From contig JAGWMJ010000008.1 in NCBI GenBank assembly GCA_028871815.1, positions 62,001-126,000 on the forward strand: a DNA stretch of 64,000 nt, in the 5' to 3' direction. The DNA comes from Armatimonadota bacterium. Its GTDB lineage: Bacteria > Armatimonadota > Chthonomonadetes > Chthonomonadales > Chthonomonadaceae. Position 1 is the first letter of the stretch; each line of letters begins with the position of its first letter. The translations under genes were made by a program, and so were the position numbers. Positions 13,820 to 18,635 of this stretch are shown in pieces. The notes beneath the pieces are model-generated. The model searched no databases, was not told where the DNA came from, and saw nothing but the letters and a program-made list of their open reading frames with translations.

Positions 13820-15625
13820 TCATTCCCGCTTCAACGATTGAATGTCTCGTTTGCTCGCAGGGCTGATTTCGGCCGCCGACCTCACGTGCCGAAGCAACTC
13901 CGTCAGAGCCGCAGCATCGCCGAACTCAAGCTCGGTGACACCATCCACGCCGTGCAGACCGCATTCCTCGGTTGCCACGATGGGCAGACCGGCGGCGGCG
14001 GCGGCCAGCAGCGCGCGCGGCGCATCCTCCACCAACGCCGGCTGAACAACGAGTCCGACACCGTTTAGCCAGCCGGCGGCGCCGCGGACTACGCGTCTCG
14101 TGCGGCATCCCTCCCAAAAGGTCTCGCCTTCCAGCTCGACGCCGCACAGCACGATTTCCAGATCCAAGGAGCGTGCTGCCTCTCGCAGCTCGAATGCGCC
14201 CTTGCGCGCGGCTGTCGGACCAGGGAAAAGGACGGCATTACCAGGCTCAAACCGCACCGCCGACGGTAGGCGCCATGGCAGCCGTAGCGCCTGGCCGGGA
14301 AACAGTGCAGCGACTGCTGCATGCGGCGTGATAATATGCTGCGCAGCGCGCAGAGCCGCGGTTTCGGCATCGACCATCCAGGCCGGCGCGCGAAACTCAC
14401 CCAGCGTCTTGCGTTCGGGATTCAGCGCCATCGCGCCGTCCAGTTTGGCATGGAGCGAGGCCAGCGGCATGCGCGTCATCAATACCTGGAAGCTGCGGCC
14501 GCCGAGATGGCCATCGCGCCACAGAAATGGCAGCAGCGACTGCGCCACTGTGACGTCGGTATTATGCGGAGCAAGCGAGCCTGCAAGCGTTGTCGCCAAA
14601 CGCTCCGCACCCTTAAGCTGGGCGGTCAGCCGGGCGGCGCCGTAACGGCTCAGCCTGCGCGTCTGCCACGACCGCACGAGAGATTGCAAGGAGGCGGCGC
14701 GCACGGCGGCGAAACCGGCTGTGTTCCAGGCATGCCGCGGCCGGTTCCAGCGTGCGCCGTCTAGCGGTATTGCAAGCACATCCTGGTCAGTCCGGAAGTC
14801 GGTGACGTATTGCTCGAACTCGGGCCAACGTTCATCCATGATCCAGACTCGCGCGCCGGACGGGCCGGGTGAGCGATGTGAATGTTCATATTCGCGGTGC
14901 CGGAAACAGGAGTCGACGCCGCATGTCGGGCAGCTGTGCGCCACAACATCGATGCGCGGTCGCAGCGGCAGTATCGCAATTGAGCTCTTGCGTACCGCGC
15001 GAGCCGGGGCCTGGCCCCACGCCCGGACGACGAGTTCCGCCCGGGTCATTTCCGCCTGAAGGCGCACGGGCTGCGCCGGCCGGAACCGGAGGTCGATGTA
15101 GTTCCACGCAACGGTCGCGTCACGGCCGACCTCGGCCGCCGATCCGGGAATGATGGCGCCGTGCGCGTGTCGCTCCACTATCTCAAAGCCCGCGTCGAGC
15201 GCCACGCAGTAGAGTGCGTTGGATAGCTGACACAGGCCGCCGCCAATGGCGGGGTAGAGGCAGCCTTCGCGAAGTTGGCGCCCCTGCGTATAGCCTCGTG
15301 CCGGGGTGGCTCTGCCGATCTGCTTCCAGAAGCTGAAGGTTGCGCCGGCCGGCACTGCCGCGCCGTTCAAGCGCCGCAGCGCGCAGCGAAGGTTTTGCAC
15401 CTTACCCTGCTGCAGGTCGCGCTCCTGAACGGTCGTGTCACTCCAGAGCGGAGTGCGCGACTCTGCGAGCAGGTGAGGAAAACCATCTTGCGGCTGCGCG
15501 GGCCATGCCCGGATGCCGGCGCGACCATCTGCAAGAATGCGAAGGCACTGAAGGCAAAGCGCACGGGCGCGGAAGAGCGCGGCGGAAAACCGCGTCGGGC
15601 TGCCCGTACCGGCCGTTTCTTGCAT
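13820..15625 (-). CDS. VanW-domain / GT-B glycosyltransferase-like fusion protein
   Basis: 601 residues from the ATG at 15625 (a TTG two codons upstream is possible). Residues about 75-200 are a VanW domain: NLRCALRRLNGAAVPAGATF, then SFWKQIGRATPARGY, LREGCLYPAIGGGLCQLSNA and FEIVERHAHG. A cysteine cluster CPTCGVDSC lies near residue 240. The rest resembles a GT-B glycosyltransferase: a donor-domain strand VLFPGPTAARKGAFEL, LEIVLCGVELEGE and the closing PALVEDAPRALLAAAAAGLP with IVATEECGLHG. VanW occurs in some vancomycin-resistance clusters, but its reaction is unknown. No signal peptide is evident. A fusion of this kind suggests cell-wall glycan or exopolysaccharide work. The convergent tRNA terminator lies at its 3' end. 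Confidence 0.8.
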   Translation of the reverse strand: MQETAGTGSPTRFSAALFRARALCLQCLRILADGRAGIRAWPAQPQDGFPHLLAESRTPLWSDTTVQERDLQQGKVQNLRCALRRLNGAAVPAGATFSFWKQIGRATPARGYTQGRQLREGCLYPAIGGGLCQLSNALYCVALDAGFEIVERHAHGAIIPGSAAEVGRDATVAWNYIDLRFRPAQPVRLQAEMTRAELVVRAWGQAPARAVRKSSIAILPLRPRIDVVAHSCPTCGVDSCFRHREYEHSHRSPGPSGARVWIMDERWPEFEQYVTDFRTDQDVLAIPLDGARWNRPRHAWNTAGFAAVRAASLQSLVRSWQTRRLSRYGAARLTAQLKGAERLATTLAGSLAPHNTDVTVAQSLLPFLWRDGHLGGRSFQVLMTRMPLASLHAKLDGAMALNPERKTLGEFRAPAWMVDAETAALRAAQHIITPHAAVAALFPGQALRLPWRLPSAVRFEPGNAVLFPGPTAARKGAFELREAARSLDLEIVLCGVELEGETFWEGCRTRRVVRGAAGWLNGVGLVVQPALVEDAPRALLAAAAAGLPIVATEECGLHGVDGVTELEFGDAAALTELLRHVRSAAEISPASKRDIQSLKRE

Positions 15626-15793
15626 GTTCAAACGCCCGATGCGGCGGAAGGTTCAGCGGCCGCGGGCTGGTCTGCAAAAGGTGATCGAAGCAGATCATGA
15701 TACCACCTGGGCGCAGATAGCGTCGGAAACCTCGGCGGGCGACGGACCGTCAGACCCAGTTGCGGGCGCTTCAAGCAGAGCTCCGCGGCACAT

Positions 15794-16567: not shown

Positions 16568-16731
16568 AATCGTCGATTCCGGGGCGGGCAACATCAGCAG
16601 ATTGCGTGTGGTTGAGAGGCGCGCGAAGCTGGAGCCGAAGCTGCCGAAATGCGTGACTTCATTGAAGGGACAACGGTTTCAAATGGGTAATAGGGTACTC
16701 GTAGATCGGGAATTTGGAGGAACTTACGTCG

Positions 16732-17001
16732 ATGGTTTGCTCCGCTGCTCTGCCGAACTTCATCACCGAGAATTACGAAGTTGTGGAGTGGCGTAATGCG
16801 TGCGCGATTCTCGAAACGGACTTTCCGAGCGAATGGGACGATATACTGGCGGTTCTGACGCGATTCCGCCTCAAGAACGGAACCATCAATAAGCCCGGGG
16901 GAAACAAGCCAATGGCGCCGGCAGCGGACGGTGTCCGGTGCTCGTGCCTGGAATCGGCAAGTTACTCTTCACGCACGATGACGATATCGACGCTGCGATA
17001 A
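16732..17001 (+). pseudogene. Truncated BglII-family type II restriction endonuclease
   Basis: 89 codons from an ATG preceded by TGGAGGA at 16715-16721. The stretch VVEWRNACAILETDFPSEWD, then DILAVLTRFRLKNGTINKPG and GNKPMAPAADG resembles the N-terminal part of BglII-type restriction enzymes as I recall the family (a hydrophobic-AILxTDFPxEW block, then a PGGxKSPI-like block). After about residue 70 the similarity stops and the frame ends, so the catalytic domain with its acidic residues is missing. It is followed within 28 nt by an equally damaged MT-A70 methyltransferase, the usual partner. Confidence is moderate because recognition rests on about 55 residues. Confidence 0.6.
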
Positions 17002-17029
17002 TAGTCGCCGCTGACGACGAAGATCCAGA

Positions 17030-17544
17030 ATGAGCGACCATATCACAGCGGGCGAAGATTTGCTGATGCGCGTCGGAAATGAGCGTTACGGCACGGTGTT
17101 GGCCGATCCGCCCCGGCATTTTGCCAACAGCAACGGCAAGATGGCCCCGGAGCACAAGCGCCTGCGGGGCTATGAGACGCTATCGTTTCAGGAGATCAAC
17201 GACTTCCGGTGGTCCAACCGGCCCTACCGTGATCGCACCGGCACATTTGGGTTCCGAATGCGCCCGTTCAAGAGGGTTTGGAAGTCATGAGCCGGTGGGG
17301 CTTCACCGACAAAACTCACATCGTCTGGTACAAAACCCGAAAGGACGGCGGCCCAGACGGTCGCGGAGCAGGCTGCTATTTCCGCAAGGCTACAGAGATG
17401 TTTGCACGAGCCACGCGGGATGGTTGGAAGCAATGGGGAAACGAAGTCGATAAGAACGGTACTGTTGACGAGACAGACCGTGAAGCTCAGCTGCAGTTTG
17501 TCATGGAGACACGCGGGGGCCCTACGACCGTTGACGGGAGTTGA
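17030..17544 (+). pseudogene. Broken MT-A70 DNA adenine N6-methyltransferase
   Basis: The first frame (17030-17290) reads ERYGTVLADPPRHFANSNGK and MAPEHKRLRGYETLSFQEIN, the MT-A70 start, but the catalytic DPPW is DPPR. The match continues in another frame: from about 17249 the codons read WVPNAPVQEGLEVMSRWGF, then KTHIVWYKTRKDGGPDGRG, ending at 17544. A frameshift near 17240-17249 therefore splits the gene, and residues before it are also deleted relative to the family. A second loss joins GAGCYFRKA directly to TEMFARATRDGWKQWGNEVD, which belongs near the family C-terminus. The enzyme would have methylated adenine to protect DNA from the nuclease upstream. It is certainly inactive as written. 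Confidence 0.85.
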
Positions 17545-17597
17545 CGCCGTCGCGGGCACCCACGTAGGAACTGGGCTCCGGCTAAAGGATTGCTACA

Positions 17598-18074
17598 TTG
17601 TCAGTCCCTGCAAAAACCTGCGCAGCATGCGGCGCCGACGCACATCTCCAGGCCGAAAGGTGTCCGTCGTGCGGGCATGCGTTTGTGCCGCCCGATCCAG
17701 GCATCGCACCAGCCGGTCCTGTTCGGGCGCCGGCCGGATATGAGGTAACGCCAGCGGCGGGCCAGGGCGCTCGTCTGGGTACGAACGAGCCGTATGCTGC
17801 GAAGCCAATACGACAGAAGAGTAAGGTGATTGCGGCGCTCCTGGCGCTTTTCCTCGGAGGGACTGGCGCCCACGGCTTCTACCTTGGCAACAGACGGATG
17901 GGCTTTACCATACTGGCGGTGAATCTTCTGGGTATACCACTGCTGCTGATCGGAGTTGGGGTGGTGGTCATCGGCGCCGTCAGCCTGCTCTGTTTCGTCC
18001 AGACATTCGTCTATCTCATCCGCAGCGAGGCAGACTTCTACCAGGACTATGTGGTTGAGAAGCGGTGGCTTTGA
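17598..18074 (+). CDS. Zinc-ribbon TM2-domain membrane protein (copy 1)
   Basis: 158 residues. An N-terminal zinc ribbon (CAACGADAHLQAERCPSCGH, two C-x2-C pairs) is followed by a flexible Pro/Ala segment and a TM2 domain: KSKVIAALLALFLGGTGAHG, then FYLGNRRMGFTILAVNLLGI and a second helix pair. TM2 proteins have two helices joined by a short turn and no firm function. The start is TTG at 17598 with AAAGGA 8 nt upstream. The next gene is a paralogue with the same architecture 90 nt downstream, so a tandem duplication took place. Confidence 0.85.
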   Translation: MSVPAKTCAACGADAHLQAERCPSCGHAFVPPDPGIAPAGPVRAPAGYEVTPAAGQGARLGTNEPYAAKPIRQKSKVIAALLALFLGGTGAHGFYLGNRRMGFTILAVNLLGIPLLLIGVGVVVIGAVSLLCFVQTFVYLIRSEADFYQDYVVEKRWL

Positions 18075-18164
18075 TTCGTCGTGGATGTGACGCAGCCGGT
18101 GCGGCACGCGGCATTGCAATGGGACGCGAGGGCAGGAAGGCAGCGTACAAACCGGAGAATCGAA

Positions 18165-18635
18165 ATGGCAATACCTGGTAAGACCTGCGCCGCCTGCGGC
18201 GCAACAGCACATCTCCAGGCGGAGAAGTGTCCAAAGTGCGGGGCCGGCTTTTCGAGCGTGAATCCGGCTGGGCCGGCGCCTCATGGAACCGCGCAGCCAG
18301 GCTTCCAGCAGCCACTGCCGGGCCAGTATCCGTACCCGGGTGCGATGCAGCCCCATCCAGCCTTTTGGCCCGCACCCAAGAGCAACGTGACGGCCGGTCT
18401 GCTGGCGCTGTTCCTCGGATGGACGGGCGCACACGCCTTCTACCTGGGCAACCTGCCGATGGGCTTTATTATCCTGGCCATAAACCTGTTAGCCCTGCCC
18501 TTGCTGTTGCTCGGAATCGGGTTTCTGATTCTTCCGGTCGTCGGCACGTTCACTTTCGTTCAGGCGATCCTCTACTTCTGCAGCAATGAGGCAGACTTTT
18601 ACCACAAGTATGTGGTTGGCAAGCGGTGGCTTTGA
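18165..18635 (+). CDS. Zinc-ribbon TM2-domain membrane protein (copy 2)
   Basis: 156 residues from the ATG at 18165, which has CGGAGAA just upstream; 28 more upstream codons are open but unlike the paralogue. It repeats the architecture of the previous gene: zinc ribbon CAACGATAHLQAEKCPKCG, linker rich in Pro/Gln/Tyr, then a TM2 domain (NVTAGLLALFLGWTGAHAFY). The two proteins share the ends (EADFY-x-x-YVV-x-KRWL) as well as both domains. They are separated from uvrB by 250 nt. Confidence 0.87.
   Translation: MAIPGKTCAACGATAHLQAEKCPKCGAGFSSVNPAGPAPHGTAQPGFQQPLPGQYPYPGAMQPHPAFWPAPKSNVTAGLLALFLGWTGAHAFYLGNLPMGFIILAINLLALPLLLLGIGFLILPVVGTFTFVQAILYFCSNEADFYHKYVVGKRWL

Follow-up and report, generated by a model that had tools for sequence, protein, structure and literature searches.

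On the forward strand of the 64,000-nucleotide stretch of DNA analysed here (the window), positions 16732-17544 hold the remnant of a BglII/BstYI-type endonuclease (PF09195) followed by that of an MT-A70 adenine methyltransferase. Sequence and tblastn agree that remnants of both components of a type II system adjoin, the endonuclease lying first and the methyltransferase start overlapping the endonuclease stop in an ATGA at 17030-17033 (+). Read in this way, the locus is almost certainly a dead two-gene type II restriction-modification operon, once composed of a BglII/BstYI-type endonuclease and an MT-A70 methyltransferase and now decayed; judged by their sequences, neither gene is able to work as such. 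The first-pass annotation had proposed a decayed BglII-type/MT-A70 pair, and this agrees well with Pfam profiles, intact homologues, alignments and a profile (A2) built from 15 intact methyltransferase relatives and run against the whole genome. When both frames were aligned with intact systems, as that annotation had suggested, both remnants aligned and their lesions could be mapped, with corrected coordinates.

The N-terminal part of the endonuclease survives in frame 1 (16732-16911, +), where homology is clear from about 16747-16750. Residues 28-67 of the open reading frame at 16714-17001 match positions 1-40 of the 163 in PF09195 (Endonuc-BglII) at E 3e-5, although with 40 of 163 positions matched the score of 24.2 bits narrowly misses the curated family cut-off of 26. 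Five intact homologues are 47-59% identical to the window within 16729-16929 (tblastn, E 1.4e-14 to 1.7e-19 for a target of only 1,300 bases), a MAFFT alignment supports the same piece, and judging by these homologues it derives from the PF09195 family. Placed against the intact homologues in the alignment, the gene proves to have lost about 113 internal residues, with a change of frame, at a junction within 16900-16912 (+); the residues spanning this gap number 113 in 12 of 13 intact homologues and 125 in the other (L006). The missing 113 residues enclose a D-x8-E-x-E core, seen in a profile of the endonuclease (A1), which is consequently absent from the remnant. In the relatives this stretch aligns with BstYI, where it reads D..E.Q as aligned, and work on BglII leads us to take its residues as catalytic; the missing part therefore likely includes the catalytic core. 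Searched against solved structures, A1 matched BstYI at E 0.007, and phmmer with an intact endonuclease found no match.

Beyond the junction, the C-terminal end of the endonuclease persists in frame 3 (16905-17033, +; stop TGA at 17031-17033), as located by tblastn with five homologues and by alignment, and carries CPVLVPGI where relatives have CPVLVFGI. Taken alone this match is weak (tblastn E 0.001-0.009 with a target of 1,300 bases), and we assign the stretch to the endonuclease C-terminus because order, distance and the ATGA overlap also fit. The first-pass annotation missed this remnant and described a truncated nuclease. The gene is indeed broken, but it is not simply truncated, having lost residues internally while its end was kept in another frame. 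Its likeness to known BglII/BstYI-type endonucleases thus lies in the N-terminal 40 positions and the C-terminal end, and its differences in the changed frame and the deleted, putatively catalytic core, whose loss would leave the enzyme inactive.

The methyltransferase begins in frame 2 with an N-terminal MT-A70 remnant (17030-17200, +; A2 genome search E 2.9e-16) and continues in frame 1 with its middle and C-terminal parts (17203-17544, +; E 3.4e-30), both delimited by tblastn and alignments. Within the latter, the open reading frame at 17278-17544 passes the PF05063 (MT-A70) cut-off with 24.9 versus 23.9 bits. The DPPW motif, found in 26 of 26 aligned relatives, has become DPPR at 17105-17116, exactly as first annotated. 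A frameshift that had been reported near 17245 lies elsewhere, at about 17198-17205 (+), since tblastn traces homology in frame 2 as far as about 17197-17206 and picks it up in frame 1 from 17197-17203. The first reading also overlooked a TGA stop in the resumed frame (17230-17232, +), visible in the sequence, in tblastn and in the A2 genome search. It did recognise a large internal deletion, which the alignments show to be in frame, to span 51-52 residues and to have its junction near 17392-17400 (+); with it went 20 family-invariant positions, including the HSRKP stretch. In place of DPPW and one continuous frame, the window therefore has DPPR, a frame change and a TGA. Compared with MT-A70 methyltransferases of bacteria, plasmids and phages, the remnant keeps 46 of its 58 retained invariant residues and shares a position next to a BglII-type endonuclease, and it differs in its changed motif, frame change, stop codon and internal deletion, which together would render it inactive. 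The partner of BglII itself is an N4-cytosine methyltransferase, not an MT-A70 enzyme.

The endonuclease piece is the sole PF09195 match in the whole genome (E 1.8e-4), and A2 finds no other methyltransferase match there at E 1e-8, with 9 of 27 candidates scored. A PF05063 search of the same genome returned no match, missing even this locus and giving no control match, and we give it no weight as a sign of absence. NCBIfam searches gave no useful family. One N6_N4 methyltransferase match (C1) lies elsewhere in the genome.

The two remnants can also be compared for damage at positions that relatives conserve. Across 26 relatives (L035, ended by its contig edge, was excluded from this alignment) the methyltransferase has 78 invariant columns, of which 58 remain in the window, the other 20 being deleted or absent. 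Among those kept, 12 of 58 are altered, versus 0-2 in each intact relative when it is left out in turn. The altered columns of the endonuclease remnant amount to 1 of 8 invariant, 3 of 17 at 90% and 6 of 29 at 80%, against 0-2, 0-4 and 1-7 in control endonucleases at the same columns. The columns kept in the endonuclease hence show no clearer damage than divergent intact homologues do, and eight invariant columns give little power.

Related pairs in open frame occur in Geobacter, in Omnitrophota and in four other genomes of the window's phylum. PF09195 is present in 46 of 291 phylum genomes. A2 matches at E 1e-8 are found in 14 of the 291; only five besides the window's own reach E 1.8e-114 or better, and the other eight are weaker (E 5.6e-45 or worse). 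Strong matches to both genes on one contig are found in five other phylum genomes. The pairs of G226, G098, G145 and G275 are open (the TAG counted in the G226 methyltransferase is its natural end, and locus analysis shows no internal stop), and the endonuclease of G104 has an internal TGA. Within the window's family, A2 finds no methyltransferase at E 1e-8 in any of the 16 other genomes; one of these, G054, carries a PF09195 gene from a different subgroup.

We assembled 27 methyltransferase loci, 22 from a scan of genome contigs and five from the phylum. An endonuclease match without internal stop accompanies 16 of them, from the same phylum (L002, L003, L005, L006) and elsewhere (L034, L037, L039, L041, L042, L047-L051, L053, L054); the match is broken at two (L004, L038) and lacking at nine, of which L033 and L035 begin at a contig end. 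The intact endonuclease relatives span all 163 PF09195 positions. On viral contigs we found 116 methyltransferase relatives and kept 80, 51 of them with a nearby endonuclease match. A methyltransferase match occurs in 17 plasmid records, and 11 of these have an endonuclease match too. The gene pair is mobile: many viral contigs and some plasmids carry its two members in close proximity.

In a collection gathered mostly via the methyltransferase, and therefore under-sampling loci where that gene is broken, every locus with one broken partner (4/4) combines a broken nuclease with an open methyltransferase. L004, from genome G104, has an endonuclease with one internal TGA (L004:1627-1629, - strand), and L038 has an endonuclease remnant in two frames next to its methyltransferase. 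Two viral contigs (L114:2835-2993 and L153:2648-2767) retain no more of the endonuclease than its final 40-50 residues, immediately before the methyltransferase. These four loci show the same gene pair in partial decay as the window does, L114 and L153 with a C-terminal endonuclease stub like the window's, but their methyltransferase matches are without a stop, unlike the window's. One further locus, L168, combines an open endonuclease with a stop near the start of the methyltransferase match, possibly before the real start. The stops in L119, L129, L181 and L187, on viral contigs, fall at match ends.

PMC3488263 describes cases in which a lone frameshift or stop in a published methyltransferase gene turned out to be a sequencing error. 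That a sequencing or assembly error hides genes still intact in the organism is nevertheless very improbable here: two large deletions, a changed catalytic motif, a stop codon, a shift of frame and changes at 11 more invariant residues cannot all arise from one base-calling error. It is just as hard to credit that the two pieces have been retained to serve in some new capacity, perhaps as short peptides. The endonuclease N-terminal piece does retain its 47-59% identity to intact homologues, but the lesions are spread over both genes and no conserved remnant of such form appears in the other 16 family genomes at the thresholds used. The reading of a decayed operon leaves the question of which gene failed first, and this order is not readable from the locus. 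We somewhat favour the nuclease because a host whose type II nuclease still works does not normally survive losing its protection. The first-pass annotation had the system lost after its modification function failed, a sequence of events that the similar drops in identity of the two remnants do not single out and that the half-broken relatives lean against. Averaged over the five nearest intact relatives, identity goes from 0.60 to 0.50 for the nuclease and from 0.75 to 0.59 for the methyltransferase.

An endonuclease deletion that came earlier, leaving a methyltransferase that was unneeded and decayed in turn, has a slightly better than even chance of being correct. L004, L038, L114 and L153, with their broken endonucleases beside open methyltransferases, point this way, as do the methyltransferase loci with no endonuclease match in the examined DNA (9/27, and 29/80 on viral contigs); the sampling bias of the collection, the stop beside the open endonuclease of L168 and the greater damage to the window's methyltransferase count against it. 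The reverse order, in which the methyltransferase was inactivated beside a silent or weak endonuclease that was lost later, is unlikely on this evidence, since it would have exposed the host to its own nuclease and since the half-broken loci all show the opposite state. It does gain some support from the window itself: the methyltransferase is more altered than the nuclease remnant predicts, lying below a line fitted to the intact pairs of 13 loci (residuals -0.03 to -0.15, against an sd of 0.047 and a lowest value of -0.110 among the intact pairs), and only its remnant has clearly more altered invariant positions than intact relatives do, although eight invariant endonuclease columns are too few for a fair comparison. 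There is precedent as well, for the survey of solitary restriction endonucleases in PMC3488263 records 74 with methyltransferase pseudogenes nearby and a cell that survived deletion of the PaeR7I methyltransferase. It is tempting to speculate that the locus is a fossil of such modification-first loss, the lineage having survived because its endonuclease was already silent or partner-dependent; we regard this as a slightly more doubtful proposition still.

Family knowledge suggests that an intact pair would combine cleavage of a specific site by the endonuclease with protection of the host's copies of that site by the methyltransferase, probably through N6-adenine modification. The BglII site AGATCT occurs seven times in the window, versus 7.4 expected, an uninformative count because the specificity of this system may differ. 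The system was probably acquired horizontally, because the methyltransferase is missing at E 1e-8 from the other 16 family genomes; its patchy spread in the phylum and the mobility of the pair on viral contigs and plasmids support such a gain. Selection was then probably lost, with decay in place. Base composition was considered as a sign of foreign origin and set aside: G+C dips to 0.55-0.59 over 16600-17599, but nearby uvrB reaches 0.575. Neither the window's neighbourhood nor an empty site was found among 23 amidase/TM2 loci and 15 uvrB loci of family members (about 1.5 kb flanks), and the genomes examined included no sister species of the window's genus. A local repeat search at the locus found no convincing direct repeat to explain the deletions.

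The neighbouring genes have features of their own. Downstream lies a tandem pair of TM2-domain genes, each with a zinc-ribbon-like N-terminus (17598-18074 and 18081-18635, +), 56% identical to each other and seemingly a duplication. On the other side, an N-acetylmuramoyl-L-alanine amidase gene (PF01520; 15794-16594, -) is transcribed away from the dead operon, and a 603-residue open reading frame (13820-15631, -) joins a VanW domain to a weak glycosyltransferase group 1 match, an unusual-looking combination.

In summary, the pseudogene pair is an ordinary one of a known kind. It documents one further dead restriction-modification operon with its lesions properly mapped. The decay of restriction-modification systems is already well described, and the locus alone therefore changes little; L004, L038, L114 and L153 would be useful points for a wider study on the order in which the two genes are lost.
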